This document shows, piece by piece, positions 9,593 to 54,439 of a stretch of DNA of 64,000 nucleotides. Both the position numbers and the translations under genes were made by a program. The stretch comes from Lactiplantibacillus pentosus (lineage in GTDB: Bacteria > Bacillota > Bacilli > Lactobacillales > Lactobacillaceae): NCBI RefSeq assembly GCF_003641185.1, contig NZ_CP032757.1, forward strand, positions 1 to 64,000. Direction: 5' to 3'. How positions within the stretch are numbered: position 1 is the first letter of the stretch; the number at the start of each line of letters is the position of its first letter. The notes under the pieces were generated by a model that worked only from the letters and a program-made list of their open reading frames with translations, was not told the origin of the DNA and did not search any database.

Positions 9593-9617
9593 GAACTTAA
9601 ATCGGGAAGGCCCCAAG

Positions 9618-10622: not shown

Positions 10623-10636
10623 TTAAATTCGTGAGT

Positions 10637-10681
10637 ATCTGGCGTTCGCTAGATTACTTTCCTTGCTCTTCGCAGAGAAGG
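10637..10681 (+). promoter_or_regulatory. rpsF leader with two hairpins, possible S6:S18 control site
   Basis: Between promoter and ribosome site are two compact hairpins: ATCTGGCG-TT-CGCTAGAT at 10637-10654 and CCTTGCTCT-TCGC-AGAGAAGG at 10661-10681. Autoregulatory rpsF leaders bound by the S6:S18 complex are known in many bacteria. I could not match the published consensus by eye, so the role is inferred from position and structure. Confidence 0.35.
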
Positions 10682-10711
10682 GCCTGAAGTCCATAAGGAG
10701 GTGCAAATTTC

Positions 10712-11011: not shown

Positions 11012-11047
11012 TAGACAAAATTAATTTCAAGAGAGGAGCGCTTCTGC

Positions 11048-11641: not shown

Positions 11642-11679
11642 TCTAATTGCTTAGACAGACATCGAGGAGGGAACTATCA

Positions 11680-11916
11680 ATGGCACAACAAAGAAGAGGT
11701 GGCCGTCGTCGTCGTAAAGTCGACTTCATCGCCGCTAACCATATCGAATACATCGATTATAAAGATACTGACTTATTACGTCGTTTCATTTCAGAACGTG
11801 GAAAGATTTTGCCACGTCGTGTAACTGGGACTAGTGCTAAGAACCAACGTGCTTTAACGATCGCTATCAAGCGTGCACGGATCATGGGCTTATTAGCATT
11901 CGTATCCGAAGACTAA
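11680..11916 (+). CDS. rpsR: 30S ribosomal protein S18
   Basis: Partner of S6 on the 30S platform. The 78 residues begin [20 protein letters not shown] and contain the conserved [21 protein letters not shown] and [15 protein letters not shown] chose ATG at 11680 because GAGGAGGG lies 9-16 nt upstream and the length then matches the family. The in-frame extension to 11647 would add 11 unconserved residues. It is the last gene before the terminator at 11927-11957. Confidence 0.97.
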
Positions 11917-11926
11917 TCAGTCATTT

Positions 11927-11957
11927 AAAACCACAGACTTCAGTGCTGTGGTTTTTA
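11927..11957 (+). terminator. Terminator after rpsR
   Basis: Stem AAAACCACAG / CTGTGGTTTTT with a 9-nt loop and T tract. Confidence 0.9.
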
Positions 11958-12092
11958 TTTACCCTGAAAGTGATGAGGATAGGCTAGCCACGGCAAATGA
12001 AACGTTTACGTTGTTCAACATCAATCGCTGAAGCAAATGGTGGTTTGTGATAAAATATAGACATTACTGAGAAGGCTTGAGGGATTTTTAAA

Positions 12093-14105: not shown

Positions 14106-14118
14106 GAGTGAAGACAAG

Positions 14119-14571
14119 ATGCAAGTTATTTTTTTGAGTGATGTTCGTGGAAAAGGAAAACGTGGTCAAATCAAGAACGTGCCGGATGGGTACGCCACTA
14201 ACTTTTTAATCAAAAAAGGATTGGCGAAGGAAGCCACCAAAGCAGCCATCAATACGTTGAAGGCTGAACAGAAGTCCGAAGCAGCCCGGGCTGCCGAAGA
14301 GTTAGCGGAAGCTAAGCAAGTCAAAACGGTGCTTGAAGCTGACGAAACAGTCGTTGAATTGAAGGCTAAGGCTGGTACTGATGGCCGTTTGTTCGGCTCA
14401 ATTCCTAGCAAACAAATTGCCACGGCTTTAGCTGACCAATACCAAGTCAAGTTAGATAAACGTAAAATCGAATTGCCAGAACCAATTCGGGTATTAGGTT
14501 ACACCAACGTGCCCGTTAAGTTACACCCAGAAGTAACGGCGAAAATTCGCGTGCACGTTGTCGAAAAGTAA
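14119..14571 (+). CDS. rplI: 50S ribosomal protein L9
   Basis: Elongated large-subunit protein binding domain V of 23S rRNA. The 150 residues show the N-terminal signature [27 protein letters not shown] (written here only in part), the long Ala/Lys/Glu-rich connecting helix (about 40-75) and a C-terminal RNA-binding domain. It follows gdpP by 13 bp and precedes dnaB by 15 bp, and the three are probably one transcript. Confidence 0.96.
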
Positions 14572-14586
14572 AAGGACGGATCATAA

Positions 14587-16017
14587 ATGAACAACGATGT
14601 GCTGGATCAAACCCCACCACAAAATATTGAAGCTGAAAAAGCGGTCTTAGGGGCCATTTTCTTGAATAGTGACGCCCTCGTGGAAGCCATGGAGTTTGTC
14701 GAAGCGCAAGATTTCTATCGCCGCGCACATCAAATCATTTTTGCTAGCATGGTGACCTTGAACGACCGGGACGAAGCGATTGATGCGGTGACGGTCAGCG
14801 ATTTATTGACGGCCCAAAATCAATTGGAAGACGTCGGTGGGATGAGCTACATTGCTGAACTGGCTGGTTCAGTACCAACTGCCGCTAATGCGGGCTACTA
14901 TGCTAAAATCGTGTCGCAAAAAGCGACAGTGCGGCGGCTGATCAAGACTGCGACGGAAATCACGCAAAAAGCCTATACTGAAAATGACGACGTGACGACG
15001 TTGTTGGATGATGCCGAACGCGACATCATGAACGTGTCGGAACAGCGTAATCAGAGTGGGTTCAAGTCGATTTCGGATGTGTTGAATGCGTCCATCGAAG
15101 AAATCGACCGGTTATACCAAAATGACGATGATATTACCGGATTACCGACTGGCTTTGCCGAACTCGACAAGATGACGGCGGGACTGCAACCGGATAACTT
15201 GATTATCTTGGCAGCCCGGCCGGCCGTTGGTAAGACGGCCTTTGTCTTAAACATTGCGCAAAACGTGGCGACTAAAACCGATACGACAGTGGCAATTTTC
15301 AGTCTTGAAATGGGCGCCGAATCGTTAGTTAACCGGATGCTGTGTGCTGAAGGTAGTATCGATGCCGGCCACTTGCGAACGGGGCAGTTGAATGAAGAAG
15401 AGTGGGAACACTTGGTGGTCGCGATGGGGAGTCTCTCCAAGGCCAGCATCTTCATTGACGACACGCCTGGGATCAAGATGTCTGAAATTCGTGCCAAGAG
15501 TCGGCGGTTGGCGAAGGAACAAGGTAACCTTGGTCTGATCGTCGTCGATTACTTGCAGCTGATCGAAGGTAGTAATACCGAAAGCCGGCAACAAGAAGTT
15601 TCTGAAATTTCACGGCAAATGAAGAAGCTGGCAAAGGAACTCGGCGTGCCCGTCATTGCGCTATCTCAATTGTCACGTGGCGTTGAACAACGTCAAGATA
15701 AGCGCCCAGTGCTGTCTGATATTCGTGAATCTGGATCAATTGAACAAGATGCGGATATCGTTGCCTTCCTATACCGGGAAGATTATTACGAACGTGAAGG
15801 CGGCGACGATGAAGATGGCGGCGGTAACTTTGGCGGTGGTGGCGGCGACTTTAACGGTGGTGATCCTCGTGAGCAGGACGCTTCCGAAGACGTTGGTGAA
15901 GTGGAAGTCATCATTGAAAAGAACCGTGCCGGTGCGCGGGGAACAGTCAAATTATTATTCGTCAAACCATTCAATAAATTCTCGTCGGTATCCTATGCAC
16001 AGGATCCGCAAGCTTAA
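14587..16017 (+). CDS. dnaB: Replicative DNA helicase DnaB
   Basis: Hexameric 5'-3' helicase of the replication fork (called DnaC in B. subtilis). The 476 residues show the primase-interacting N-terminal domain (1-150), a linker, and the RecA-like domain with Walker A ARPAVGKTAF near 210-219 and VVDYLQLI near 318. Unusual is a run of about 30 Gly/Asp-rich residues (EGGDDEDGGGNFGGGGGDF and following, about 400-430) inserted before the conserved EVIIEKNRAGARGTV strand. Normal homologues have only a few residues there. A terminator follows at 16021-16054. Confidence 0.96.
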   Translation: MNNDVLDQTPPQNIEAEKAVLGAIFLNSDALVEAMEFVEAQDFYRRAHQIIFASMVTLNDRDEAIDAVTVSDLLTAQNQLEDVGGMSYIAELAGSVPTAANAGYYAKIVSQKATVRRLIKTATEITQKAYTENDDVTTLLDDAERDIMNVSEQRNQSGFKSISDVLNASIEEIDRLYQNDDDITGLPTGFAELDKMTAGLQPDNLIILAARPAVGKTAFVLNIAQNVATKTDTTVAIFSLEMGAESLVNRMLCAEGSIDAGHLRTGQLNEEEWEHLVVAMGSLSKASIFIDDTPGIKMSEIRAKSRRLAKEQGNLGLIVVDYLQLIEGSNTESRQQEVSEISRQMKKLAKELGVPVIALSQLSRGVEQRQDKRPVLSDIRESGSIEQDADIVAFLYREDYYEREGGDDEDGGGNFGGGGGDFNGGDPREQDASEDVGEVEVIIEKNRAGARGTVKLLFVKPFNKFSSVSYAQDPQA

Positions 16018-18312: not shown

Positions 18313-19551
18313 ATGGAAGACTTAGCACAATTAGGGCAGCGCGCACAGCAGGCCAGCTATTCGCTGGGATTACTGTCCACGATGCAAAAGAACCAAGTAT
18401 TGTTAGCGATGGCAACGGCCTTAACGACCCAGCAGGATGAAATTCTAGCAGCCAATGCGAAGGACTTAGAAAACCCACAAGTTCCTGAAAAATTCGTGGA
18501 CCGACTCAGATTGACTGCTGACCGGATCGAAGCGATGGCTACTGGTCTCAAACAAGTGGTCACTTTACCCGATCCAATCGGCAATGTCGACCGCGCTTGG
18601 CGCAATGAAGCCGGTCTGATGATCGCTAAGGAACGGGTGCCACTCGGAGTTATCGGAATGATTTTTGAAGCACGCCCGAACGTGACGGTCGACGCCTCCG
18701 CGCTCTGTTTTAAGACGGGCAACGCCGTCATTTTACGGGGTGGCAAGGAAGCAATTCACTCTAACCAAGCGTTAGTTCAAGTCCTCCGCGGCGCCTTACG
18801 TGCTAATGACGTGGATGAAAACGCGATCCAATTAATTACAGATACCTCGCACGCCACGGCCGAGAAGTTCATGCAACTGACGGACTACGTGGATGTCTTG
18901 ATTCCGCGGGGCAGTGCACGTTTGATTCAGACGGTCCTCGCCAAAGCCACAGTGCCCGTCATTGAAACGGGTGCCGGTAATTGCCACGTTTACGTTGATA
19001 AGGATGCGCAGTTGCAAATGGCCACAGACATTGTCATTAACGGCAAGGTTCAGCGGCCTTCCGTCTGCAACGCCACCGAAAAACTCTTGATCCATCAAGA
19101 CGTTGCGGCAGCGTACTTACCAAGCATGATTCAAGCGTTGCGTGACCAGGGTGTTGAAGTCCGTGGTGACCAAGCGACCCAAGCAATCGTACCGGACGTC
19201 GTACCAGCGACGGATGCTGACTGGGGTACCGAATACAATGATTTGATCATTGCGGTGAAAGTCGTGGATTCAGAAGCAGCGGCCATTGCACACATCAATC
19301 GCTACAATACGCAACATTCGGAAGCGATTGTGACGGATAACTACCAAGCAGGTAAGATCTTCCAGCAACGGGTCAATGCGGCTTGCGTTTATATCAACGC
19401 CTCAACTCGGTTTACCGACGGCTTTGAATTTGGCTTCGGGGCTGAAATCGGCATTTCAACGCAGAAGTTACATGCCCGTGGACCAATGGGCTTAGCCGAA
19501 CTCACCTCGTATAAGTATGTAATTGACGGTAACGGTCAAGTTCGCCATTAA
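18313..19551 (+). CDS. proA: Glutamate-5-semialdehyde dehydrogenase (gamma-glutamyl phosphate reductase)
   Basis: Second proline step: NADPH-dependent reduction of gamma-glutamyl phosphate to the semialdehyde. The 412 residues have the aldehyde-dehydrogenase fold, with GVIGMIFEARPNVTVDAS near 113-130 and the active-site cysteine in QRPSVCNATEKLL near 252. ATG at 18313 follows AGGAGGA. It closes the proBA operon, which ends at a long hairpin terminator. Confidence 0.96.
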   Translation: MEDLAQLGQRAQQASYSLGLLSTMQKNQVLLAMATALTTQQDEILAANAKDLENPQVPEKFVDRLRLTADRIEAMATGLKQVVTLPDPIGNVDRAWRNEAGLMIAKERVPLGVIGMIFEARPNVTVDASALCFKTGNAVILRGGKEAIHSNQALVQVLRGALRANDVDENAIQLITDTSHATAEKFMQLTDYVDVLIPRGSARLIQTVLAKATVPVIETGAGNCHVYVDKDAQLQMATDIVINGKVQRPSVCNATEKLLIHQDVAAAYLPSMIQALRDQGVEVRGDQATQAIVPDVVPATDADWGTEYNDLIIAVKVVDSEAAAIAHINRYNTQHSEAIVTDNYQAGKIFQQRVNAACVYINASTRFTDGFEFGFGAEIGISTQKLHARGPMGLAELTSYKYVIDGNGQVRH

Positions 19552-40198: not shown

Positions 40199-40217
40199 TA
40201 TGATGGGCAGTCAGGGG
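40199..40217. repeat. attL of the island
   Basis: 19-bp core TATGATGGGCAGTCAGGGG, identical to 54345-54363. Homology continues for 9 more bases (to GAACCC) with two differences. It corresponds to the 3' end of tRNA-Lys. Confidence 0.9.
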
Positions 40218-40290: not shown

Positions 40291-40315
40291 TGGCTTACCA
40301 ATTGGCTTACTTTTA
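40291..40315. repeat. Left integrase arm-type repeat
   Basis: A 25-bp sequence with two GGCTTAC units 12 bp apart, repeated with one difference at 54218-54242 near the right end and in the same orientation. Paired short direct repeats at both flanks, about 75-100 bp inside the cores, are what integrase arm sites look like. Confidence 0.65.
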
Positions 40316-40351: not shown

Positions 40352-40473
40352 ACTGGAAATGTTTGTTTTAACGTGGTCCACGTGGTCCGGTGGTCCAAAC
40401 GTTGATATATCAACGTTTTAAAGACCCCTTGACGTGGTCCATATGGTGGTCCAACGTGGTCCACTTGGTAAAA
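40352..40473. repeat. Iteron array, left copy (origin-like), inverted relative to 45421-45541
   Basis: Six TGGTCC-containing iterons, three on each side of a perfect 22-bp AT-rich palindrome at 40397-40418 (core GTTGATATATCAAC). The whole ~120-bp unit is the reverse complement of 45421-45541 with about four central differences. It sits just after the integrase gene. SaPI-type satellites replicate from iterons flanking an AT-rich centre, bound by their own helicase. Confidence 0.8.
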
Positions 40474-40493
40474 AGTGCCTGAATATGCCAAGT

Positions 40494-41648
40494 TTAAAAG
40501 CCTAAATAATTAGCTAACTTATTGGCCGCCTGCTGATTTTGGCCCTTAGTGACGTGTGTGTAAACATTTAGGGTTGTTGCAACGTCCTCATGGCCTAATC
40601 GGGTTTGTACTTCTTTAATGGTGGCACCAGCGGCAAACAAAGCGGAGGCGTGACTGTGTCGAAAACCATGTACGGTAATACTAGGGGTTAGGTGGTAATC
40701 AGTGATGATCCGCTTTAACCACTTACCCGGAGTATTAAGCGATTTAAAACCGTTCTTAGTGTTAGCAAAAACTAACTGATCCGGCTGTAACGTATTAAAA
40801 CCTAAAAACAAATAATACTCACGTTGCTGTTTATGCCAGCGTTGTAATATTTCTACCGTCGTATTGTCTAAGCTGACAGTGCGGCGGCCCTTTTTTGTCT
40901 TAGGGGCTTGAATAATCTGCTTGCCGCGTTTCCCTTGGGTAAGTGTTTTATTAACCCGCAAGGTCTTATGGACAAAGTCAATATCTTGCCATGTCAGGGC
41001 TAAACACTCGCCACGTCGCACGCCTGCAAACGCTAGTACCCGGAAGAGACAATACTTTTCGGGTTCTTTTTGCTGGTCAATGCACTTGAAGAACGTCTTT
41101 AGTTGATCGCGATCCCAGAAGTTATCGGGCTTATCACCCCAACTATCAGGCTTGACCGGCATTGTAATCATTCTAGCTGGATTATGTGTGATATAGCCGT
41201 GTTTTAAGCCGTATTCAAAGACTGATACCAGATAATTGTACCAACGCTTGTAATTGTACGTGACTTCTTTAAACCATAGATTAACAGCACGCTGGCACTG
41301 GTTGACGGTGATGGTTCGTAACCGCTTGTTACCAAACAACGGCAAGATGTGATTATCGAACATACCAGCAGTCCTTGCCCAAGTGCTTTCACGAACGGTA
41401 TTAATATACTGGTCGTACCATTCATGATAGACGTCAACGAAGAGAATATTGTTATCAACTGGTAAAACCGGTTCTTGCTGTAACTCTACTTCAATTCTGG
41501 ATAAAGCAATACGAGCAGCGCTTTTTGATTTAAAGCCCCGACGCCGGGTTGACTTCTTTTTACCAGTTTGAGGATCAACACCTAAATAAACTTGAAACTG
41601 ATAACGGGTATTCCCGTCCTTGTCCTGATACTTCTTGATTGTTGCCAT
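40494..41648 (-). CDS. int: Tyrosine-recombinase integrase of the island
   Basis: Site-specific recombinase that inserts and excises the island at tRNA-Lys. The 384 residues show an AP2-like arm-binding N-terminus (QFQVYLGVDPQTGKKKSTRR), a core-binding SAM-like domain (about 65-170) and the catalytic domain: Arg in GVRRGECLALTW, HGFRHSHAS near 325-333 and the Tyr nucleophile at about 363 in LNVYTHV. ATG at 41648 follows GGAGGAAA. It is transcribed toward attL, as usual for PICI integrases. Confidence 0.96.
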   Translation of the reverse strand: MATIKKYQDKDGNTRYQFQVYLGVDPQTGKKKSTRRRGFKSKSAARIALSRIEVELQQEPVLPVDNNILFVDVYHEWYDQYINTVRESTWARTAGMFDNHILPLFGNKRLRTITVNQCQRAVNLWFKEVTYNYKRWYNYLVSVFEYGLKHGYITHNPARMITMPVKPDSWGDKPDNFWDRDQLKTFFKCIDQQKEPEKYCLFRVLAFAGVRRGECLALTWQDIDFVHKTLRVNKTLTQGKRGKQIIQAPKTKKGRRTVSLDNTTVEILQRWHKQQREYYLFLGFNTLQPDQLVFANTKNGFKSLNTPGKWLKRIITDYHLTPSITVHGFRHSHASALFAAGATIKEVQTRLGHEDVATTLNVYTHVTKGQNQQAANKLANYLGF

Positions 41649-41669
41649 TTATAATTTCCTCCATAACGT

Positions 41670-41684
41670 ACCGTGCGGGGGCAG
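41670..41684. repeat. 15-bp direct repeat, copy 1
   Basis: ACCGTGCGGGGGCAG, identical to 42711-42725. The pair brackets the repressor / AlpA-like control region. This copy lies 22 bp ahead of the integrase start codon on its upstream side. Function unknown. Confidence 0.6.
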
Positions 41685-41705
41685 TGTTATGTAGAGAAAA
41701 AAGTT

Positions 41706-42392
41706 CTAGAAGAAGGGCTTTTTGTTCATTTCATTATTAATATTAGATTTTATTCTTATTGCTTTAGTATCCCCCTCTTGAGCGTCTAAAATAACTTTGA
41801 ATAATTTTTGTAACAAATAGATGTTGTCTGAATATTGCATTTCATCTAACACTGAAATGTTCTTCTTTTGTTGGCTTTTTAATAGTTTCACACACAGTTT
41901 GTTAACTTTATCAATGTATTCATTATTTGTGTGTGAAAAAAAATTCGGGCTAAAAAGAATTTTTGCTAAATTTGAATAAGCAAGTAAATCATCATAGCTA
42001 ACATAGCGATCTGATTCAACATTTAGCTGAGTTTGCTCTTTTAATAAAGCTTTTTCTAGTTCTTGTAGTTCAGTATCATTTCTATAATTATCAGTGCCAA
42101 GCTGTTCTTGAACGAAATGCATTAGATTTAAACGATAATTGTTATCTTGTTGATTTTCGTAAACTTCTTTTTTGGTTTTATACGGTGATATTCCTTGTAT
42201 ATAAAGAATACTGACATTATAAAAATCTGCTAATTTTTGCCAGACTACTAGTTTTGGCTCACGTACACCGCGTTCGTATTTTGCTAATGTATCAGGCGAG
42301 ATTGATAGACCAGTTTTTTTACTAAGCTCTTTTACAGCTGTACGTAATGTAAGGTCTTTTTCGCTTCTAAGTTCTCTAAGCTTGTTAACCAT
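41706..42392 (-). CDS. CI/Stl-type repressor of the island
   Basis: Master repressor that keeps the satellite silent. The 228 residues begin with an XRE-type helix-turn-helix (about 1-70; LRTAVKELSKKTGLSISPDTLAKYERGVREPK, shown for position only in part: KKTGLSISPDTLAKYERG). The remaining 150 residues match no peptidase domain, so SOS-type self-cleavage is unlikely. PICI repressors of this kind are usually inactivated by binding a helper-phage protein. It faces the AlpA-like gene across three identical-type operators (42442-42506). AT-rich compared with the packaging genes. Confidence 0.85.
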   Translation of the reverse strand: MVNKLRELRSEKDLTLRTAVKELSKKTGLSISPDTLAKYERGVREPKLVVWQKLADFYNVSILYIQGISPYKTKKEVYENQQDNNYRLNLMHFVQEQLGTDNYRNDTELQELEKALLKEQTQLNVESDRYVSYDDLLAYSNLAKILFSPNFFSHTNNEYIDKVNKLCVKLLKSQQKKNISVLDEMQYSDNIYLLQKLFKVILDAQEGDTKAIRIKSNINNEMNKKPFF

Positions 42393-42441
42393 ATGAACCC
42401 CCCTCCTTATTAATTGATATTAACATAAAATGATTAAAAAT

Positions 42442-42506
42442 AATACAATATGTATTGAAATACAATTTGTATTCTGATATGATGTTTTTGAAATACAATT
42501 TGTATT
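42442..42506. promoter_or_regulatory. Three repressor operators in the genetic switch
   Basis: Three 15-bp palindromes of the form AATACAA-T-TTGTATT: 42442-42456 (one arm imperfect), 42459-42473 and 42492-42506 (both perfect). The rightward promoter TTGAAA (42455-42460), 17 bp, TATGAT (42478-42483) contains the middle operator in its spacer, so the bound repressor would block it. This is the divergent switch between the repressor and the early genes. Confidence 0.8.
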
Positions 42507-42523
42507 TTAGGGAGGAAACAAAT

Positions 42524-42706
42524 ATGAAAGAAAGTTTACCTAGATATATGTCTATTAAGCAAACGCTAGTTTACTTCAACATAAAATCTCGTAACACATT
42601 GAAAAAAAACTACATTGCTAAGGGTTTACCAGTTGTAATTATCAATGGTACTAAACGCATTGATCAAGTGGACGCAGACAAGTTCATGGAAGCACATAAA
42701 GTTTAA
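42524..42706 (+). CDS. AlpA/Xis-like DNA-binding protein
   Basis: First gene of the rightward early transcript. 60 residues with a winged-helix / MerR-like head: MSIKQTLVYFNIKSRNTLKKNY then GLPVVIINGTKRIDQVDADKFM, the pattern of excisionase-family (helix-turn-helix 17) proteins. Likely an excisionase or activator of excision. I chose ATG 42524 because GGGAGGAAA lies just upstream; the longer frame from 42455 would run through the operators and promoter. Confidence 0.75.
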   Translation: MKESLPRYMSIKQTLVYFNIKSRNTLKKNYIAKGLPVVIINGTKRIDQVDADKFMEAHKV

Positions 42707-42710
42707 TTGC

Positions 42711-42725
42711 ACCGTGCGGGGGCAG
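42711..42725. repeat. 15-bp direct repeat, copy 2
   Basis: ACCGTGCGGGGGCAG, identical to 41670-41684, just after the AlpA-like gene. Confidence 0.6.
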
Positions 42726-42748
42726 AATAAATTTAAGGAGGTGATTTC

Positions 42749-42856
42749 ATGATAGCAACAGCAGTTTTATGGGCAATCAAGTTTGTGATTGTGTCGTTTG
42801 TTGGCAACGTGGTAGTTAAGTTAATCAAGAACCCGCGTCGGTATTTTGGAATGTGA
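42749..42856 (+). CDS. 35-residue membrane peptide
   Basis: Small gene behind a perfect ribosome site (AAGGAGGTG). One hydrophobic segment (ATAVLWAIKFVIVSFVGNVV) is followed by a basic tail (KLIKNPRRYFGM). No family recognised. Position in the early operon between the AlpA-like gene and the replication genes. Its strong ribosome site supports translation; it could be a helper-interference or membrane-active peptide, which is guesswork. Confidence 0.6.
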   Translation: MIATAVLWAIKFVIVSFVGNVVVKLIKNPRRYFGM

Positions 42857-42868
42857 GGTCAGTCGCAT

Positions 42869-42944
42869 GGGAAAGCATACAAAAAAGGCCTACTTTGCTT
42901 TGGACGGCAGTAGGTCGAAGAGATAATCAAAAATATGCTTTCCC
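42869..42944 (+). ncRNA. Nested hairpin in the early region
   Basis: GGGAAAGCATA (42869-42879) pairs perfectly with TATGCTTTCCC (42934-42944). Inside, GGCCTACT (42887-42894) pairs with AGTAGGTC (42909-42916). A T-rich stretch follows (TTATTTTAA), so it could act as an attenuator between early genes. A 19-codon frame starting at 42867 runs through it but has no good ribosome site. Confidence 0.4.
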
Positions 42945-42974
42945 TTATTTTAACACGAATAAGGAGAATGGAAA

Positions 42975-43205
42975 ATGACAAATAGTGAATTAATGGAACA
43001 AGCTAAGAATTTATCAGCGGCACGTGACAATCTGAAAATGGCGATTGACTACTTAGATATGGTGTCTGCTTCAGTTAATCAAGGAAATGTATGGGCAGGA
43101 CGATTATTTTTCGCAGACCACCGCGCTGAAAACGTTGTTGAAAACATGCAAAATGTTGCTGATTCGATTATGGCAGTTAGCAATGCCATTTGTCCCGAAG
43201 ATTAG
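42975..43205 (+). CDS. Hypothetical protein of the island
   Basis: 76 residues, MTNSELMEQAKNLSAARDNL to SNAICPED, predicted helical and soluble with a weak coiled-coil pattern. No family recognised. A good ribosome site (AAGGAGAATGG) precedes ATG 42975, and the primase-polymerase gene starts 13 bp after its stop, so it belongs to the replication operon. Confidence 0.7.
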   Translation: MTNSELMEQAKNLSAARDNLKMAIDYLDMVSASVNQGNVWAGRLFFADHRAENVVENMQNVADSIMAVSNAICPED

Positions 43206-43218
43206 GCGGTGTTGAAAA

Positions 43219-44019
43219 ATGAACGAGTTCGCAACACTTGATAAAGCCATTGAGCTGGCACAACAAGGCTATTCAGTTTACCCGTTAATTGAGAATATGA
43301 AGAAACCGCCCAAAGGAGTGTCAGGCTATAAAGACGCAACTATTGATCAAGGAACCATCTTTGCATGGTTTGAAAATCACCCGGCTTATAACTTAGGCTT
43401 GCGGCTAGATTTATCGGATTTATTGGTTGTTGACATTGATATGCACGATCCAACTAAAAACGGCCGGACTAGCTTGGCACAACTATTTAAGCAAGGGCTG
43501 ACGTTGCCGAATGATACCTACATTGAACGGACGGCTAACAACGGCGTACATTACTTTTTTAAATACGCGGGTGCTAAGGTTCGCAAAATTGACGTTTGGC
43601 CCGGAATTGACTTGCTAAGTGACTTCACGGTGATCGCACCAAGCGAGATTAACGGCAAACCGTATGCCCCCTTAGATGGCCGAACCTTGGCTGATATTAA
43701 GCCGGTTCCTCAATGGCTAGTTGACAAGTTGGCGGGGCAAAAAGTGAACTGGCCGTCAGAACGCGCCTATACCACACGCCAAAAGAAGTATACCGGTCGC
43801 TTGTTAGATGAAATGGTAACTGGGACAACCCAAGGTAATCGCAACGCTTGGTTAACTAAAATTGCTGGTCGTATGTTTGGCGTCGGCGCTTCTCCCAAGA
43901 CAGTCTATAACATGCTGTCAGTGATCAATGATTCGTTCGTTGATCCGGCACTACCAAGCAAGGAAGTTAATGTGATTTTTCAATCCATTTTAAAACGAGA
44001 GAGTAAGGGGGTTCATTAA
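43219..44019 (+). CDS. Bifunctional DNA primase/polymerase
   Basis: Prim-pol enzyme that makes primers for satellite replication. The 266 residues show the AEP core: YSVYPLIENMKKPPKG at the start, the catalytic VVDIDMHD (Asp 72, Asp 74), ERTANNGVHYFFKY, and GIDLLSDFTVIAPSEI. A C-terminal helical PriCT-1-like domain (about 190-262, TTQGNRNAWLTKIAGRMFG) follows. Its stop overlaps the helicase gene start by one base, so the two are coupled. This pair is the replication engine of PICIs. Confidence 0.92.
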   Translation: MNEFATLDKAIELAQQGYSVYPLIENMKKPPKGVSGYKDATIDQGTIFAWFENHPAYNLGLRLDLSDLLVVDIDMHDPTKNGRTSLAQLFKQGLTLPNDTYIERTANNGVHYFFKYAGAKVRKIDVWPGIDLLSDFTVIAPSEINGKPYAPLDGRTLADIKPVPQWLVDKLAGQKVNWPSERAYTTRQKKYTGRLLDEMVTGTTQGNRNAWLTKIAGRMFGVGASPKTVYNMLSVINDSFVDPALPSKEVNVIFQSILKRESKGVH

Positions 44020-45413
44020 TGGGCAAAGCAATGGATTTACCAGCAGAGACCCGAGAAGCGGCCAATAATGTTATCAAAATGCAACGTGACGCTGATTGGC
44101 AGAATGATTTCAAAAAAAATTCGGACGATGGGATCAAAACACAGTCTCTTTACAATATCCGTTTAATTATGGAACATGACGAAATGTTGAAAGGACTAGT
44201 TGTCTTTGACGAGTTCTCGGAACAAATTGTCAAAACACCACAAGCAGACAATTCACTGTTCAAAAAAGGTTTTTGGAATGATAGTGATGACACGTTATTG
44301 AGAAGTTATATTGAAGATCATTACAACTTGTTATTCAGCAAGGAAAATATTACCGACGCGGTAGTTACAGAAGCACGCCGCAAGACAATCAATCCGGTTA
44401 AGGCTCGTATTGAAGCGGTAGAATGGGACGGCCAGCCACGTGCTGAACGTTATTTCATTGATTACTTAGGTGCCGAAGATAATCACTACACCCGCACCAT
44501 CACTAAGAAATGGCTAACTGGTCTTATTGCCCGGGCCTATGTTCCCGGAGTTAAGTTTGAAATTGTACCTATCTTAGAGGGAAGCCAAGGACTTGGCAAG
44601 AGTACGGCTGGTAAGAATCTATACCCGGATAAATTCAATGATTCGCTGAAAGGAATGGGTAAGCAGAAAGACGATTATCAACAGTTACAAGGTAGTTGGA
44701 TTATTGAAGTTGCCGAGCTTTCCGCCATGAAAAAAACGGACGTTGAGGGAATTAAAAATTTTATTAGTGCACAATCCGACACATATCGGAATAGTTACGG
44801 CCGCTATGCGTTGCCACACCCGCGTAAATGCGTATTTATTGGCACGACTAACCAAACCGACTATTTAAAGGACGCGACCGGTGAACGGCGCTTCTATCCA
44901 ATTAAATGTGGGGTCAACAAGGCCAAATTAGATGTATGGCACCCGGACGAGAATTATATACTTCAAGTATTGGCGGAGGCCGCGTATTGGTTTAGGAATG
45001 GCGAACTGCTATATCTGGATCAGGCCACCTTGAAAGAGGCTAAGGCGTATCAGATGGCTGCGGAAGCTGTTGACCCTATGCGAGATGCCATTGAAGAATT
45101 TTTAGCAATGGAAGTTCCCACAGATTGGGGAAAAATGAGTACCAGCTTAAAACAAAGCTATGTCAGTGACTACGGTCAGCAATCTAAGTGGCTACAAGAT
45201 CAAGTTAGCAATGAACGGAAACTGCTCAATCAAACAACAACTCGGGAAATTATGGAAGTTGTCTTCCATAAAACAGTTGATCGTTATTTAACCGGGCGAA
45301 CAAACTCGGAAGCTAAGCGAATTAAGTTGTTAATGGACAATATGGACGGGTGGAAAAGTCAACGAATTAGAATGAATGGCCAACGTCTACATGGGTATAT
45401 GCGCGAAGTTTAA
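44019..45413 (+). CDS. VapE-type superfamily 3-like replication helicase
   Basis: Virulence-associated E family ATPase, the likely replication initiator and helicase. The 464 residues have Walker A EGSQGLGKST at 187-196, Walker B WIIEVAEL near 227-234, and the arginine/sensor region IGTTNQTDYLKDATGERRFYPI near 275-296. The name is historical and does not imply virulence. It is coupled to the primase-polymerase gene and ends 7 bp before an iteron array, the order seen in SaPI rep-ori modules. Confidence 0.92.
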   Translation: MGKAMDLPAETREAANNVIKMQRDADWQNDFKKNSDDGIKTQSLYNIRLIMEHDEMLKGLVVFDEFSEQIVKTPQADNSLFKKGFWNDSDDTLLRSYIEDHYNLLFSKENITDAVVTEARRKTINPVKARIEAVEWDGQPRAERYFIDYLGAEDNHYTRTITKKWLTGLIARAYVPGVKFEIVPILEGSQGLGKSTAGKNLYPDKFNDSLKGMGKQKDDYQQLQGSWIIEVAELSAMKKTDVEGIKNFISAQSDTYRNSYGRYALPHPRKCVFIGTTNQTDYLKDATGERRFYPIKCGVNKAKLDVWHPDENYILQVLAEAAYWFRNGELLYLDQATLKEAKAYQMAAEAVDPMRDAIEEFLAMEVPTDWGKMSTSLKQSYVSDYGQQSKWLQDQVSNERKLLNQTTTREIMEVVFHKTVDRYLTGRTNSEAKRIKLLMDNMDGWKSQRIRMNGQRLHGYMREV

Positions 45414-45420
45414 TCAGAAA

Positions 45421-45541
45421 TTTACCAAGTGGACCACGTTGGACCACCATATGGACCACGTCAAGGGGTCTTTGAAGTGCTGATATATCAACGTTTGGAC
45501 CACCGGACCACGTGGACCACGTTAAAACAAACATTTCCAGT
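45421..45541. repeat. Iteron array, right copy (likely replication origin)
   Basis: Six GGACCA iterons, three on each side of an AT-rich centre (GATATATCAACG), immediately downstream of the helicase gene. It is an inverted near-copy of 40352-40473. The outer parts are essentially identical; differences concentrate at one arm of the central palindrome. Location right behind rep is where SaPI origins lie. Confidence 0.82.
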
Positions 45542-47034: not shown

Positions 47035-47040
47035 TCAATG

Positions 47041-47070
47041 AGTGTCGTGCTGAAAGGTGCGGCGCTTTTT
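47041..47070 (+). terminator. Terminator after the HNH gene
   Basis: Stem AGTGTCGTGC / GTGCGGCGCT with several wobble pairs, then TTTTT. Confidence 0.6.
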
Positions 47071-47186
47071 AGTATCTGCGGTCGCAAGTTACGACCTTAG
47101 ATAACGTACTAACTTGGTGCACTAGCTGACTCGCTAAGATGACGTGACAGGTTGCTTGTGCTACCTAAGCTTAACTTAGATAGGTA

Positions 47187-47244
47187 AACAAAAGGCCGCC
47201 CGTTAAGGCGACCGATGACATCTATGATAATTAACCTGACAGTT
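47187..47244 (-). ncRNA. Candidate small RNA in the packaging region
   Basis: On the minus strand: TTGTTT (47273-47278), 16 bp, extended -10 TGATATAAT (TATAAT at 47251-47256), then about 57 nt ending at a terminator hairpin GGTCGCC / GGCGGCC (47194-47213) with TTTTGTTT. The RNA would hold two hairpins. No reading frame fits. Signals are good but unproven. Confidence 0.4.
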
Positions 47245-47728
47245 AAGTTAATTATATCACGTGAAAGCGAGAAAACAATTTGTAGGTCTAAATTTTATAC
47301 CCACAATTCAAGATTAATATTGAAAGGTGTTTCCACAGTAGTAGATCTGCGCAATACTGCGCTGAACTTTCAGCCGAGATACTAAGCGGAGTTTTCCGCT
47401 GACCTAACCAACCCGCATTTTGCGTCTACGTTGCCAAAATTGGCAATGGACTGCGCCAAGTTTTCGGCCGAGTGAACAATTCAAGTTGGCGGCTCAATTT
47501 TGCGCCACGAAAATAATTCAAAACAGCATGACAGCCCAGAAACGTTGATATGGGGGGCTATGGTCGACCAAAAAGGAGCGGACAGCATACTTTTGTGTTT
47601 ATAAAAGTCCCTTTTTAACTTTGATTTTTTGCTGATTTTGCTGGATTGTGAAATATCCCTACTAATAATGCGAAATTTAAACAAATAGTCAGTCAGGGGG
47701 TAACGTGTAAATATATACATGTTATTAA

Positions 47729-47757
47729 TTGCACTTTTTAGAGATATGTGCGATAAT
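47729..47757 (+). promoter_or_regulatory. Promoter of the packaging operon
   Basis: TTGCAC (47729-47734), 17-bp spacer, GATAAT (47752-47757), about 105 bp before terS. Confidence 0.65.
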
Positions 47758-47796
47758 ATAGATATAATAAACGAATTCTGGATATATGTATCAATC

Positions 47797-47829
47797 AGCC
47801 GCTATGGGTCTAACCCATGGGGGCTTTTT
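47797..47829 (+). terminator. Leader terminator between promoter and terS
   Basis: AGCC..ATGGGT pairs with ACCCAT..GGCT (loop CTA), followed by TTTTT. It lies after the promoter at 47729 and before the terS ribosome site. Transcription from that promoter would have to read through it, so it could be an attenuator or the end of an upstream transcript. Confidence 0.7.
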
Positions 47830-47862
47830 GGCACGTAAATTTAAACGAAAGGAGTGCTCCGA

Positions 47863-48336
47863 ATGAGCCGAAAAGTAAAAGCCTTAGCTAGTATGAAAAA
47901 ACATTTAACCAATGATGAGCGTGACCAACGTAAGGACACAGAGAAAGCGTTATTTGATTACCCGTCACTCGATTTAACGCCCCCTGATTGGTTACATGAT
48001 CGGGCCTTGACTGAATGGCAACGGGTAGCGCCTTATTTAAAGGCCAATACCCCAATTAGTGAACTTGACCGGGCCATGTTAGCCAGTTATTGCCGCGCTT
48101 ATGCCACCGTACAGACATGCGAGAATGATATTCGTAAGAACGGGCTGGTACAAACTAATCAAGAGACTGGCGTACGTAAGCCGAACCCTTACGTGGCCTT
48201 GCAGTCACAAGCGATGAAAGATTTAAAAGCCTTAGCCAATGATTTAGGCATGTCGCTATCGAGCCGGGCCCGCATGGAATTAAACAAGCAGAAAGATGAG
48301 ACACCCGAAGATACTTTCGAGGCGATGTTGTCATGA
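47863..48336 (+). CDS. terS: Terminase small subunit, P27 family
   Basis: Recognises the packaging site and hands DNA to TerL. 157 residues with the P27-family core: PPDWLHDRALTEWQRVAPYL, YCRAYATVQTCENDI, and the C-terminal FEAMLS. I chose ATG 47863 because AAAGGAG sits 9 bp upstream; the GTG at 47854 overlaps that site. It overlaps terL by 4 nt. Carrying its own terS redirects packaging to satellite DNA. Confidence 0.92.
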   Translation: MSRKVKALASMKKHLTNDERDQRKDTEKALFDYPSLDLTPPDWLHDRALTEWQRVAPYLKANTPISELDRAMLASYCRAYATVQTCENDIRKNGLVQTNQETGVRKPNPYVALQSQAMKDLKALANDLGMSLSSRARMELNKQKDETPEDTFEAMLS

Positions 48337-50036
48337 TTGAATATGTTGACCAAGTTTTATCGGGCCAAGTGTTGGCTGGTCAAAAGATTAAATGGGCGTG
48401 TGAGCGATTTAAACGCGATTTAAGCCGTTCTAAAGAAGACAGCTTCCCGTTCTACTATGACGAAGACAAAGCGGCACAGGCGGTTAAATTTATCGAATTA
48501 ATGCCGAAGACTGATGGTAGCCAACTCACCATGCAACCCTTTCAAAAATGGATTATCAGTGAGTTATATGGCTGGCGTGAAAAAACTACTGGTAACCGCC
48601 GTTATGATCGGGCGTTTATTAGTATGGCCCGAAAGAACGGTAAAACCTATCTGGCTTCTGGCATGGCCGCTAATGGCCTTTTAAGAGAACGACAGCCCGC
48701 CCGCAACCGACAAGTATTATTCGTAAGCAACGCCCTCAAACAAGCTAAATTGGGCTATGACATGCTTTCAAGTGGGTTACGGCAAGTCCGCAAGCAATCG
48801 AAGTATATGCGGCAACGCATTAAGGTACAGAAGCAAGCCATTACCGACCTAGAAACTAATTCGCAAGTCCTAGCCCTTGCCAGTGATACCAGTACGCTTG
48901 ATGGTTATGCCGGGACTACTGTTATTTTAGATGAATGGCACGAAGCTAAAGACCGCAAGGTGTACAACGTTTTAAAGTCTGGTCAAGCACAAGAAGATAA
49001 CTCCCTGCTGGCGGTGATTTCCACCTCGGGCCTTAACCTTAATGTCCCAATGCACGCCGAATATGACATGCTGACGGACGTTTTAAAGGGCAAAACCGAA
49101 GCTGACCGTTATTTTGTGGCAATCTGGGAACTGGACGACCGCGAAGAAGTTTACGATCAAGCCAACTGGATCAAGGCTAACCCGTTATTCAGTGAACCAC
49201 ACGTTAAACAACGCATGACGGAAAAGATCCAGGCCGATGTTGACCTTGCAATTAAGCAAAATAACCTTATTCCGGTACTGGTTAAGAACTTCAATATGTG
49301 GTTGCAAGCCAGCGAGGACAGTTATATTTCAGCAGACGATTGGTCCGCTGGTAAATTGGCAAAGGTGCCCGACTTACATAATCGCGACGCCTATATTGGC
49401 ATTGATTTATCAAAAAGTAATGACTTGACCGCGGTTAGTTGGTTGATACCAATTGGCAACGGTCAGTTTTATTGTGATAGTCATTCGTTTGTGGGCACTA
49501 AGTACGGCCTGGATTCTAAGATTAAACGTGATGGGATTGATTACCGGTCAATGGAGCGCGCTGGTGAGTGTAGTATTACTCGCCTTGATAGTGGTGTGAT
49601 TGATTATGACGAGCTATTTGATTTTGTACAAAAACTAGTCGGAAAATACAACTGGAAAGTGAAAGCCGTCGCTTATGACCCGTATAACGCGCAAACGTTA
49701 ATTACAAAATTCGAGAAATTAAGCTACCCACTGTTTGAAGTGCGACAAGGCACCAAGACTTTGAATATTCCCACCCGTAACTTTCGTGACCAGCTTTACG
49801 ATGGCAAGATTAAACATAACGGTAACAAGATTCTCGCTTATGCGGTCAATAACGCCATCTTGAAAGTGCTAAACAATGGCTGGCAACTGGATAAGGCACG
49901 CAATAGCAACCGGATTGACCCGGTAGCAGCCTTAATTAATTCTTACGTTGCCGGTATGGACTATTACCAAGAAAGTGAGGATCAACAACATGCAGAAGAT
50001 TACTACAAAACAGCGACTGCGGCAGATTTGTTCTGA
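48333..50036 (+). CDS. terL: Terminase large subunit
   Basis: Packaging ATPase and nuclease of the HK97 (terminase_1) type. The 567 residues show the Walker A variant ARKNGKT at 99-105, Walker B VILDE at 197-201, and a C-terminal RNase-H-like nuclease with IGIDLSKSNDLTAVSW (about 350-366) and AYDPYNAQTLITKFEKL. Full length, no frameshift. SaPIs that only carry terS use the helper's TerL; this element has both. Confidence 0.96.
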   Translation: MIEYVDQVLSGQVLAGQKIKWACERFKRDLSRSKEDSFPFYYDEDKAAQAVKFIELMPKTDGSQLTMQPFQKWIISELYGWREKTTGNRRYDRAFISMARKNGKTYLASGMAANGLLRERQPARNRQVLFVSNALKQAKLGYDMLSSGLRQVRKQSKYMRQRIKVQKQAITDLETNSQVLALASDTSTLDGYAGTTVILDEWHEAKDRKVYNVLKSGQAQEDNSLLAVISTSGLNLNVPMHAEYDMLTDVLKGKTEADRYFVAIWELDDREEVYDQANWIKANPLFSEPHVKQRMTEKIQADVDLAIKQNNLIPVLVKNFNMWLQASEDSYISADDWSAGKLAKVPDLHNRDAYIGIDLSKSNDLTAVSWLIPIGNGQFYCDSHSFVGTKYGLDSKIKRDGIDYRSMERAGECSITRLDSGVIDYDELFDFVQKLVGKYNWKVKAVAYDPYNAQTLITKFEKLSYPLFEVRQGTKTLNIPTRNFRDQLYDGKIKHNGNKILAYAVNNAILKVLNNGWQLDKARNSNRIDPVAALINSYVAGMDYYQESEDQQHAEDYYKTATAADLF

Positions 50037-50190: not shown

Positions 50191-51291
50191 ATGAGTTTTT
50201 TCGTTAAAAGCAGTACCACCAGCGGCACGCATGATCCGGTAGCTGACGCCTTGGTTAGTTTATCAAGCAATGACCCCTATACGTTTGTAAGTGCGTCGGT
50301 ACTGCGCAATAGTGACATTTACGCGGCAATTAACATTATTGCGAGCGATATTGCCAGCAATCCGATTGTTTGCGATACGGCCATTTTTAACACGATGATT
50401 AATCAGACCCCCAATAGCCAAATGGACGGCTACCATTTCAAATATGCGTTGGCGGCTAACCTGTTACTCAATGGCAATAGTTTTGCCGAGATTTTGCCTA
50501 ATCACACACTTAAATTTGTGCAAAATAACCAAATGACAGTTGAACAAGATGACGTCAGTGGGGCGTTGACCTACACCTATACCCCAATTGGCGGTAATAG
50601 TCGTCAGATTGCGCCTAACAACATTTTACATTTTAAATATTTCACCAAAGACGGCGTATCGGGAATTAGTCCTCTATATGCCCTCAAAGATGAGCGCCAG
50701 ATTCAGTCGGCCGGCAATAAATTGCTAACCGGCTTTTTTACTGCTGGTGTGCACGGCACCACGATTATTAAAGTCCATCAATCTGATTTAGGGCCGGAAG
50801 CTAAGGGCAATATTCGCAACCAGTTTGATGAAGCCAATACGGGTGACAACGCGATCAACACGATTGTGACCGATGACACGATGGATATTAGTAACTTATC
50901 CTTAAATACCGATGTGTTAAAACTGGTCAACTCGAATGACTGGACGACCCGACAAATTGCTAAAGCCTTTGGCTTACCACCGGAGCGCTTAGGGGTTGAG
51001 AACGATCATTCTAACCAAGAGCAAAGTGGCGTGCAGTATCTACAAGGGACGTTGCAACATTACTTTGATAGCTTTACCAGCGAGCTGTCATTCAAGTTTG
51101 GCCATGACTTCACGTTTAATACGGACAAGCTATTGAGCCTTGATCCGCAAACGCAACAAGCCCAAGCGGTGGCTGGTTTCACTGGCGGCGTTATGAGCCG
51201 TAACGAAGCGCGGGCCAAGATTGGCTTGCCACCAACTGACGATGGCAATATTTTCTTAAACTTACAAAAGAATGGAGTGACTAATTCATGA
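50191..51291 (+). CDS. Phage portal protein
   Basis: Twelve-fold ring at the head vertex through which DNA enters. The 366 residues match the HK97-type portal: VLRNSDIYAAINIIASDIASNP near 38, NILHFKYFTKDGVSGISPL near 147, and RQIAKAFGLPPERLGVENDHSNQEQS (about 252-277, shown only for location). AAAGAGGTG precedes ATG 50191. The length is slightly short but complete. It overlaps the protease-capsid gene by 4 nt. Confidence 0.95.
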   Translation: MSFFVKSSTTSGTHDPVADALVSLSSNDPYTFVSASVLRNSDIYAAINIIASDIASNPIVCDTAIFNTMINQTPNSQMDGYHFKYALAANLLLNGNSFAEILPNHTLKFVQNNQMTVEQDDVSGALTYTYTPIGGNSRQIAPNNILHFKYFTKDGVSGISPLYALKDERQIQSAGNKLLTGFFTAGVHGTTIIKVHQSDLGPEAKGNIRNQFDEANTGDNAINTIVTDDTMDISNLSLNTDVLKLVNSNDWTTRQIAKAFGLPPERLGVENDHSNQEQSGVQYLQGTLQHYFDSFTSELSFKFGHDFTFNTDKLLSLDPQTQQAQAVAGFTGGVMSRNEARAKIGLPPTDDGNIFLNLQKNGVTNS

Positions 51292-52817
51292 AACAAGACC
51301 GACGGTTAACGATTGACGCCGAATTGCGAGCACAAACGCCGCAACCAGAAACACCCGAAGACGGGCCAGCTGAAAATTCAGCAGACCCGCAACCTAAAGA
51401 TTCCCAAACAAGCAAGGGCAAAACAATTAGTGGTTATGCAATTGTATGGAACTCGCCAAGTAAAGACTTAGGCGGCTTCACTGAGGTTGTTACCCCTAAG
51501 GCCCTTGATGGTGTCGATTTATCAAATGTTCTTATGCTTAATAACCACGACTATACTCAAGTGCTAGCCAGTGTTAAGGCGGGCACGTTAACGCTAGAAA
51601 CGGACGACAAGGGGCTACATTTCACCGCACAGTTGCCGAATACGTCGTTTGCTAATGACGTCTATGAAGAAGTTCAAAGTGGGAACGTTGATTCTTGTTC
51701 ATTTGGCTTTGATAGTGACGACGACACCGATGAATGGGCTAAAGATGATGATGGCAATATCACCCGAACCATTAATCAAGTTAAGAGCTTGTTCGATGTG
51801 TCAGTGGTAGCCGTTCCCGCTTATGACGATACCAATGTACAAGTTGATACCCGTAGCTATGAAAAATTTATTAACCAAGAAAAGGAGCCTGACAACATGG
51901 CAAAACAAACAATTATTGATCCTAACAGCAATGAAAACAAAACTGGCATTCCCGCCTTTGAGCAATATGTACGGACACACGGGGAAACACGAGACGGCTT
52001 AAAGACGGACGGTGCCAGTGCCGTTATTCCTAAGGAACTGATTACCCCTGTTTTCCAATTAAAGCAATCTAAGTACAACCTTGCCCAATATGCAACGGTT
52101 AAGCAAGTTTCTAGCGGTTCCGGGACTTATCCAATTGCCACTAGTCAACAATCTGCGGTACTGGCTACTAAGGACGAACTAGCGGACATTGCCGATGTTG
52201 ACGCGAACATGTTTACGGAAGTGCCGTTTGATGTGAAGACCCGGGCGGGTAAGATTGCCTTATCTAATGAAGTGGTCGAAGACGCCGAAGTTGATATTGT
52301 CAGCGAAGTTAAAACCCAATTACAACAATTGGTTGATAACACGGACAACACGCAGATCATGGGCCTGTTAACGGGTAGCAATTTCACTAAGGCAACTGCC
52401 ACCAGTATTGATGATCTTAAAAAGATTTTCAACGTGACGTTAGATCCCGCCTTGAGCAAAATGTGGTTAGTGAACCAATCCGGGTTCAATTACCTTGATA
52501 CACTCAAGGACACCGAGGGCCGTTACTTATTACAGCCTAATCCAACAGCACCCAGTGGTTTCACCTTATTAGGGGCACCAGTCGTCATGATCAGTGATAA
52601 ATTACTGGCTAACAACGCGGACGGGACGTTCCCAATGATTGCGGGGGACTTATCACAAGCCGTGGCGGTTTTCCGGCGTAACCAAGTAACTGCCCAATGG
52701 GACAAGTTCGACCAGTTCAGTCAAGGACTTTCCGTCATTGTGCGGAATGATTATGAAGTGATTGATAAGACCGCTGTAATCAACGTGGCGTTAGGAACTG
52801 CGACTGCTGGTAAGTAA
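51288..52817 (+). CDS. Prohead protease fused to HK97-type major capsid protein
   Basis: One 509-residue polyprotein. Residues about 40-190 are an HK97-family prohead protease (SGYAIVWNSPSKDLGGFTEV, catalytic His in LNNHDYTQVLAS, Ser in VDSCSFGF). From residue 204 it is a major capsid protein (GIPAFEQYVRTHGETRDGL onward). An internal ATG at 51897 (Met 204) is preceded by AAAGGAG with a 9-bp gap, so free capsid protein could also be translated. Self-cleavage would otherwise separate the two parts. Fusions of this kind are known in phages but are uncommon. Confidence 0.93.
   Translation: MKQDRRLTIDAELRAQTPQPETPEDGPAENSADPQPKDSQTSKGKTISGYAIVWNSPSKDLGGFTEVVTPKALDGVDLSNVLMLNNHDYTQVLASVKAGTLTLETDDKGLHFTAQLPNTSFANDVYEEVQSGNVDSCSFGFDSDDDTDEWAKDDDGNITRTINQVKSLFDVSVVAVPAYDDTNVQVDTRSYEKFINQEKEPDNMAKQTIIDPNSNENKTGIPAFEQYVRTHGETRDGLKTDGASAVIPKELITPVFQLKQSKYNLAQYATVKQVSSGSGTYPIATSQQSAVLATKDELADIADVDANMFTEVPFDVKTRAGKIALSNEVVEDAEVDIVSEVKTQLQQLVDNTDNTQIMGLLTGSNFTKATATSIDDLKKIFNVTLDPALSKMWLVNQSGFNYLDTLKDTEGRYLLQPNPTAPSGFTLLGAPVVMISDKLLANNADGTFPMIAGDLSQAVAVFRRNQVTAQWDKFDQFSQGLSVIVRNDYEVIDKTAVINVALGTATAGK
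51881..51899 (+). promoter_or_regulatory. Internal ribosome site and start for free capsid protein
   Basis: AAAGGAG (51881-51887), 9-bp gap, ATG (51897-51899) in frame with the fusion gene, exactly at the protease/capsid junction. Confidence 0.65.
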
Positions 52818-52930: not shown

Positions 52931-53200
52931 ATGGCTGTAACCGTTGATGATATTAAACTAAGCCTAAGGATTGATGTAACCGAAGATGATCCAATGATTC
53001 AAAGCTATTTAGACGCCGCCAAGGACTACGTGCAGACGGCCGTTAGCAAGAATGAAGATCTGACTGTCTATAAACAGTATGACTTTGCTGTATCGTTGCT
53101 GACACAATTCTGGTATCAAAATCGAGTAACCGATATGACAAAGACACCGTATCAAGTTGTCAGCATGATCCAGCAATTGCGCGGATTAGTAACCGGATAA
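52931..53200 (+). CDS. Head-tail connector protein (gp6-like)
   Basis: Ring protein that joins portal to the tail or head-completion complex. 89 residues: TVDDIKLSLRIDVTEDDPMIQSYLDAAKDYV, shown here by its parts LRIDVTEDDPMIQ and YLDAAKDYVQ, is the gp6/phage_connect family N-terminus; FAVSLLTQFWYQNR follows. AAAAAGGAGTG precedes ATG 52931. The 113-bp gap before it holds two hairpins (GGGGTCG / CGACTCCC and AGGGGG / CCCCCT). No tail genes follow. Confidence 0.85.
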   Translation: MAVTVDDIKLSLRIDVTEDDPMIQSYLDAAKDYVQTAVSKNEDLTVYKQYDFAVSLLTQFWYQNRVTDMTKTPYQVVSMIQQLRGLVTG

Positions 53201-54217: not shown

Positions 54218-54242
54218 TGGCTTACTAATTGGCTTACTTTTA
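54218..54242. repeat. Right integrase arm-type repeat
   Basis: 25 bp with two GGCTTAC units, one difference from 40291-40315, same orientation, about 100 bp inside the right core. Confidence 0.65.
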
Positions 54243-54344: not shown

Positions 54345-54363
54345 TATGATGGGCAGTCAGGGG
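54345..54363. repeat. attR of the island, in the tRNA 3' end
   Basis: 19-bp core identical to 40199-40217; the last 14 bases are the end of tRNA-Lys. Confidence 0.9.
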
Positions 54364-54422
54364 ATCGAACCCTGGACCCACGGATTAAGAGTCCGTTGCT
54401 CTGCCAGCTGAGCTAACTGCCC
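54350..54422 (-). tRNA. tRNA-Lys (anticodon CTT)
   Basis: 73 nt fold as a standard cloverleaf: acceptor GGGCAGT / ACTGCCC, D arm GCTCAGCTGGCAGAGC, anticodon loop CTCTTAA (anticodon CTT, reads AAG), T arm with GGTTCGATCC. Discriminator A; CCA is not encoded. Its 3' end is regenerated by the inserted island. Confidence 0.96.
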
Positions 54423-54439
54423 ATAACTCAACAAAAAAT

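Follow-up and report, generated by a model that had tools for sequence, protein, structure and literature searches.

Two opposed iteron units, set apart in a Lactiplantibacillus pentosus satellite, as a candidate bipartite replication origin

The stretch of DNA analyzed here (the window) comprises the first 64,000 nucleotides (nt) of contig NZ_CP032757.1 of Lactiplantibacillus pentosus (RefSeq assembly GCF_003641185.1). It contains a satellite of ~14 kb, bounded by attachment (att) repeats at 40199 and 54345, in which two inverted copies of an iteron-bearing unit bracket the integration, repressor and replication genes. Unit A adjoins the integrase gene (int), and unit B adjoins vapE, the gene for the initiator helicase. 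The arrangement represents a conserved and unusual form of the origin of phage-inducible chromosomal islands (PICIs), with a layout like that of satellite P4. Judging by covariation between protein and DNA, VapE probably binds both units. Their joint use is less certain, and on balance we lean toward the view that A and B together make up a single bipartite replication origin, laid out like the ori plus crr of P4. We prefer this reading because the origin of relatives consists of two such units together. As the more distant relatives mostly keep the sites together, the origin here looks as if it had been pulled into two parts.

Two inverted units with origin-type architecture

A repeat search returned inverted arms at 40352-40472 and 45421-45541 (121 nt, 97% complementary, 4948 nt apart), in agreement with an earlier reading of the sequence alone, which had described inverted copies of ~120 bp with about four differences. 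The next-longest inverted repeat listed in that 8-kb region is 38 nt long at 71%. The four mismatches between A and B are grouped at the unit center. All 12 of the TGGTCC/GGACCA iterons claimed in that reading, six per copy, were located, with starts at 40374, 40383, 40391, 40435, 40447 and 40457 in A and at 45431, 45441, 45453, 45497, 45505 and 45514 in B. The hexamers occur 30 times in the window; every one of the eight 115-bp stretches listed as densest in them falls inside A or B. The center of A (40397-40421) is 76% AT, compared with 54% window-wide. It includes the perfect 22-bp palindrome that had also been pointed out (AAACGTTGATATATCAACGTTT), which is absent from B. The length and identity of the repeat, the density of iterons and conservation in relatives (see below) rule out a chance repeat.

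Unit B begins 8 nt past the vapE stop (45413), and ~20 nt separate the end of unit A from the stop of int (40494). The placement of B directly after the helicase gene, as in origins of the Staphylococcus aureus pathogenicity island (SaPI) type, had thus been recognized correctly. It agrees with the Gram-positive PICI origin, which is placed immediately 3′ of rep (PMC6092414). In that description, the iteron sets share one place around an AT-rich region, whereas here the second unit is ~5 kb off, so that the sets lie in two places unless a single unit is counted as both. The further claim that this differs from a standard PICI therefore stands with respect to the origin described there, and a split PICI origin was not found in the literature searched.

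Conservation among close relatives

Relatives were gathered by VapE similarity and by unit DNA (397 genomes). The close set holds 79 loci with VapE at ≥80% (78 fetched, plus the window). It was not deduplicated (e.g., L043/L061 and L044/L062), and it is counted without L129-L131 and without L133-L135, which are re-fetched copies. The VapE tail is incomplete in L047 and L110, and L069 and L098 were excluded from the A/B alignment.

Unit B was found in 78 of the 79 loci, and the exception (L098) retains a B fragment. In 48 loci int is within range, and in 15 of those the contig stops at the int stop. The sequence-only reading had turned on whether related islands keep one copy or two; unit A is present in every locus with at least 140 bp beyond int (33/33, window included), always oriented opposite to B. 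It occurs with both integrase groups, which are ~97-100% and ~42-48% identical to the window int. The AT-rich center matches a permissive pattern in 30/31 A and 31/31 B copies. Inner spacing, as located by motif, falls within 41-45 bp for 17 of 32 A copies, 53 of 77 B copies and 15 of 21 copies of a third unit, C (see below). A spacing of 51 is the next commonest (11 A and 21 B copies), probably reflecting a degenerate inner iteron that the motif misses, and five A and B copies have a spacing of 32. Searches with the DNA of unit A found nothing in the phage collection and one partial match in the plasmid collection.

Iteron class follows the VapE tail at both units

The iterons fall into three classes (GGTCC, GGTAC and GGAAC/GGCAC). 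Among 68 distinct VapE proteins (a few truncated), all columns that track the class of B with an accuracy of at least 0.93 lie at residues 447-464, within the C-terminal tail, and no Prim-Pol column tracks it at 0.93. Because B adjoins the gene segment for the tail, linkage could explain this match. Unit A lies ~5 kb from that segment and adjoins int, and in 29 of 30 islands (a count that includes L061, a repeat of L043) its class matches the tail. QRL tails accompany TCC-class A in 12/12 cases and other tails accompany A without TCC in 17/18 (Fisher p 1.5e-7, with islands treated as independent). The best accuracy for the class of A is 0.968 for the VapE tail, 0.903 for VapE residue 409 and 0.875 for Prim-Pol, whereas the best int column reaches 0.71 over a base of 0.58-0.59. 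The claim that both copies resemble origin-type iteron units is strengthened accordingly, given that iteron class covaries with the tail at both.

Eighteen islands share one int family. Among them, A diverges by 24.7% when classes differ and by 5.0% within a class, compared with only 2.9-3.1% between classes for its flanks (L106, with a short flank, was omitted from the flank comparison); the 16 bp adjoining A are also variable (16.4 and 13.8% difference). Since the class of A follows the VapE tail and not int or flanking DNA, VapE is very likely to bind both sites, and we ruled out that A is only part of the int/att module. That rejection is weakened by locus L132 (G020, 9538-14823), which shows that int and A can stay together. 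The proposed role of the tail agrees with a SaPI study, according to which Rep recognizes its own origin via its C-terminal domain (PMC7581432).

The window genome has a second satellite, L128 (G000:C1:594000-612000). Downstream of its present tail and GTGTAA pair, it carries a remnant VapE tail (LITDNTEGWEHKRVHIGERYLRMYVRC) followed by that remnant's own GGTTCA iteron pair, which suggests that tail and origin move as a cassette. No TerL (terminase large subunit) or capsid matches were found in L128, and a plasmid record (NZ_CP035144, L138) has a like unit pattern.

Units A and B of the same island are 88.5% identical, against a permutation mean of 78.3% (L061 was removed from the identity, permutation and drift comparisons). 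When permutations are confined to the same class, the values are 88.9 and 87.0, with 18 of 10,000 permutations as high. The excess shrinks within class, so most of it is class matching, and we rejected the idea that recent gene conversion alone explains the likeness. In the 13 islands with A-B identity <90% (L082 excluded), A and B differ by 19.6% in the center and 22.0% outside it, compared with 21.5 and 23.6% between islands. Their class letters differ by 10.9%, compared with 39.7% between islands. Agreement of the class letters despite drift elsewhere argues for selection on recognition, not passive copying.

The third copy, C, occurs in 22 loci with an average identity of 62% to B (e.g., L108, 12966-13077). 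It is oriented as A and lies ~1.0-1.8 kb beyond B. In L108 and L067 its position is between the genes for the HNH protein and TerS (terminase small subunit), and in L042 it is ahead of the HNH gene. The window has no copy C. It shares the iteron class of B in only 4 of the 21 loci where it has a class, and for this reason we dropped it as a part of the system. In addition, L087 has an extra unit copy with an A-like flank (12894-12988), in the intergenic gap following the capsid gene, indicating that units can be copied to new places.

Origins in more distant relatives

In a distant set of 59 loci (VapE 34-63%), clusters were sought of whichever 8-mer recurs most often after vapE. Three islands are present twice (L048/L259, L049/L261 and L055/L262), L270 and L279 were uninformative, and the VapE matches at 31-33% (L166 and L167) were left out. 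Main-repeat clusters lie solely downstream of vapE in 56 of the 57 informative loci, at least four of which have contigs that are short on the int side (in L141, L148, L153 and L165, too short to show a unit there). Most of the origins printed (17 distinct loci) have, as judged by eye, two opposed sets within ~220 bp. This one-place set includes capsid-forming satellites of the Lacticaseibacillus rhamnosus group and the SaPI-type circle L278, and one member (L136) has a TGGTCC iteron. At least one gap of 41-45 bp is present in 10 of the 13 contiguous origins tested (not in L136, L137 and L148).

The closest parallels in gene content are the satellites of L. rhamnosus JB1P3 (PV668529, L137) and G068 (L136), which like the window island have int, Prim-Pol, VapE, terminase and capsid genes, with TerL and capsid 54-55% identical to those of the window. 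Unlike in the window, their paired units stand right after vapE, and no cluster was found at int.

The exception in the distant set, G229 (L263), has units at 11252-11341(+) and 19227-19327(-), ~8 kb apart, one just 5′ of int and the opposed one after vapE, with inner spacings of 43 and 55. In a tree of 48 VapE proteins (midpoint-rooted for drawing), the 10 rows labeled split form one group (100/99), L113, L119 and L133 being labeled on B alone. L263 falls in a separate supported group of eight (100/99), alongside seven one-place relatives. No relatives of the G229 VapE appeared in a scan of viral contigs, and a search of its genus returned only itself plus matches at 46% and 50%.

Comparison with known systems

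Satellite P4 (NC_001609) has the same type-1 repeats in two regions ~4.7 kb apart, with crr directly 3′ of the alpha helicase gene. Its crr is made of 120-bp repeats, and inner spacing is 43 bp in crr1, crr2 and ori. As general background, P4 replication needs both ori and crr in cis, with looping between them. Of the P4 pattern of two separated regions served by one initiator, the window shows the separation (4948 nt); that one initiator binds both regions here is suggested by covariation. The differences are that the P4 initiator, alpha, is a primase-helicase fusion, whereas the window island has separate Prim-Pol and VapE genes, and that P4 crr is doubled and lies between attP and alpha, with ori beyond the regulatory genes. 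The likeness meant here is one of layout. Some lactobacillus satellites, forming one clade, depart from the one-block PICI origin in a way that lines up with P4, which is commonly assigned to a satellite lineage of its own.

With PICIs and SaPIs (PMC6092414; SaPI-type circle NZ_CP095113), the window island shares the position of unit B, the logic of two sets and a VapE-family Rep, together with an initiator that reads its origin with its C-terminus (reported for SaPI Rep in PMC7581432 and proposed here for VapE). Control loci of iteron plasmids, such as P1 incA, likewise place an additional array of initiator sites at a distance from the origin. Unlike these, unit A keeps an AT-rich center and the full unit architecture.

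A bipartite origin and its alternatives

Each unit comprises three iterons, an AT-rich center and three further iterons. Relatives usually have two opposed units after vapE, and the window clade has a second unit beside int. Under the favored reading, the VapE tail would read the iterons, and the protein would bind A and B. On the excised circle VapE would then act on both units, probably joining them across the 5-kb int-repressor-primase module, melt centers of the GTTGATATATCAAC type and load hexamers, after which Prim-Pol would prime.

Several observations weigh against this reading. SaPI work is said to show that the origin needs both sides, close together. In comparisons with contiguous origins, the distal unit is the better match for A in 15 of 19 cases and for B in 14 of 19, so that A may be a copy of B and not a displaced half. 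The likeness of A to B beyond class is small. The islands are related, so that the Fisher value is too small, and the benchmark for the class letters is the between-island and not the same-class level. The 43-bp inner spacing is lacking in some units, and L069 lacks the center in both of its units. L082 has a TCC-class A with B and a VapE tail of the AAC/CAC class, and L132 combines a near-identical int and A with a D5-type helicase that stands in for VapE and is followed by different repeats. The mismatch in L082 and the orphan A in L132 speak against the second site being strictly required.

The units could instead be two autonomous origins, each complete, so that replication of the excised circle starts at two places. 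Nearly all copies of either unit have an AT-rich center of their own, and the short spacer between paired units in the printed lactobacillus origins suggests that melting may occur inside a unit. We nevertheless consider this unlikely, given that relatives retain two units even when these are adjacent and that SaPI replication reportedly depends on both sides. It is also conceivable, with still lower probability, that B is the origin and A a control locus, that is, a VapE-binding site limiting copy number by titration or pairing. Extra iteron arrays limit copy number in iteron plasmids. Despite its distance from the rep gene, unit A is matched to VapE, and an orphan A can persist (L132). However, arrays of this kind need only iterons, and A keeps the whole unit, with its center in 30/31 copies and, by motif, an inner spacing within 41-45 bp in 17/32 copies.

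That A is a passive duplicate, functionless and matched to B through sequence exchange alone, seems to us improbable. In its favor, L069 misses the same center in both copies, and the identity of A to its own B is slightly above that of same-class permutations. Such a duplicate should not be kept in 33/33 loci, nor should its class letters stay matched where the remainder has drifted to between-island levels, and C copies, by comparison, rarely match the class of B. Least credible of all is a recombination switch, in which the int-rep module is flipped by crossover between the two units. This was proposed in the sequence-only reading on the strength of the 121-bp inverted repeat at 97%, and it failed: VapE and TerL share a strand, with TerL downstream, in 79/79 loci, so none is inverted relative to TerL. 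There is no stable inverted form among these loci, although a minority form in culture would be invisible in assemblies.

A broader proposal, which we regard as possible and put forward tentatively, is that PICI origins work as elastic bipartite devices. Each would have a rigid unit of ~120 bp with an inner spacing of ~43 bp, used in opposed pairs that stand anywhere from tens of bases to 5-8 kb apart. The split would have arisen at least twice in the VapE family, P4 ori/crr would be of the same design, and VapE would join units over kilobases, with selection keeping the second unit in register with the tail. With the naturally occurring A/B pairs, the mismatch in L082, the lone A of L132, the missing centers of L069 and the tail code, one can test directly whether a self-loading helicase requires two units, and what limit there is on their spacing. 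The VapE tail residues further suggest a simple reading of iteron specificity.

The island and its genes

Capsid-forming PICIs (cf-PICIs) have their own capsid and packaging genes and no tail genes, integrate at an att site, and are induced by a helper phage whose tails they use. From its gene content, we classify the window island as a cf-PICI (Table 1). Pfam matches and gene orientations give an int gene, a divergent repressor and a primase-rep module, together with its own terminase, portal, protease-capsid and head connector genes. The integrase and helix-turn-helix (HTH) repressor genes point leftward; the rightward genes include those for a small HTH protein, Prim-Pol, VapE, an HNH protein, TerS, TerL, portal, protease-capsid and connector. 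Integration at an att site is indicated by the 19-bp att repeat and a tRNA-Lys, the sole match in an Rfam search. No tail genes were found in the island, the small open reading frames from 53737 to attR not being included in the search.

Table 1. Positions of the two units, the att sites and the main genes of the satellite in the window
Feature	Position	Strand	Basis or remark
attL core TATGATGGGCAGTCAGGGG	40199..40217	+	19-bp direct repeat matching 54345
Unit A, int-side origin unit	40352..40473	+	six TGGTCC iterons (3+3) around AT-rich center
Perfect 22-bp palindrome	40397..40418	.	center of A
Tyrosine integrase	40494..41648	-	Pfam PF00589, E 3.5e-28
HTH repressor	41706..42392	-	Pfam PF01381; role inferred from position
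Putative repressor operators, TTGAAATACAATTTGTATT x2	42455..42506	.	between divergent genes; repeat search; role inferred from position
Small HTH protein, probable excisionase or regulator	42524..42706	+	PHROG 668, E 1.5e-07
Prim-Pol primase	43219..44019	+	Pfam PF09250 and PF08708
VapE-type initiator helicase (Rep)	44019..45413	+	Pfam PF05272, E 1.4e-72; PDB 7pds, E 5.5e-101
VapE residues 446-464, proposed iteron-reading tail	45354..45410	+	best class-tracking columns 447-464 (B), 446-464 (A)
Unit B, origin unit directly after vapE	45421..45541	-	inverted relative to A
Terminase small subunit	47854..48336	+	Pfam PF05119
Terminase large subunit	48333..50036	+	Pfam PF20441 and PF03354
Portal protein	50191..51291	+	Pfam PF04860
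Prohead protease-major capsid fusion	51288..52817	+	Pfam PF04586 and PF05065
Head-tail connector	52931..53200	+	Pfam PF05135
attR core	54345..54363	+	overlaps 3′ end of tRNA-Lys(CTT), 54348-54423(-)

Some further repeats and one gap are worth recording. A 16-bp direct repeat (AATTGGCTTACTTTTA) lies near both island ends (40300-40315 and 54227-54242) and may represent integrase arm sites. The repressor region is flanked by a 15-bp direct repeat (ACCGTGCGGGGGCAG; 41670-41684 and 42711-42725). Directly ahead of the TerS gene, ~820 bp without a convincing gene (47035-47853) form a plausible packaging-site region.

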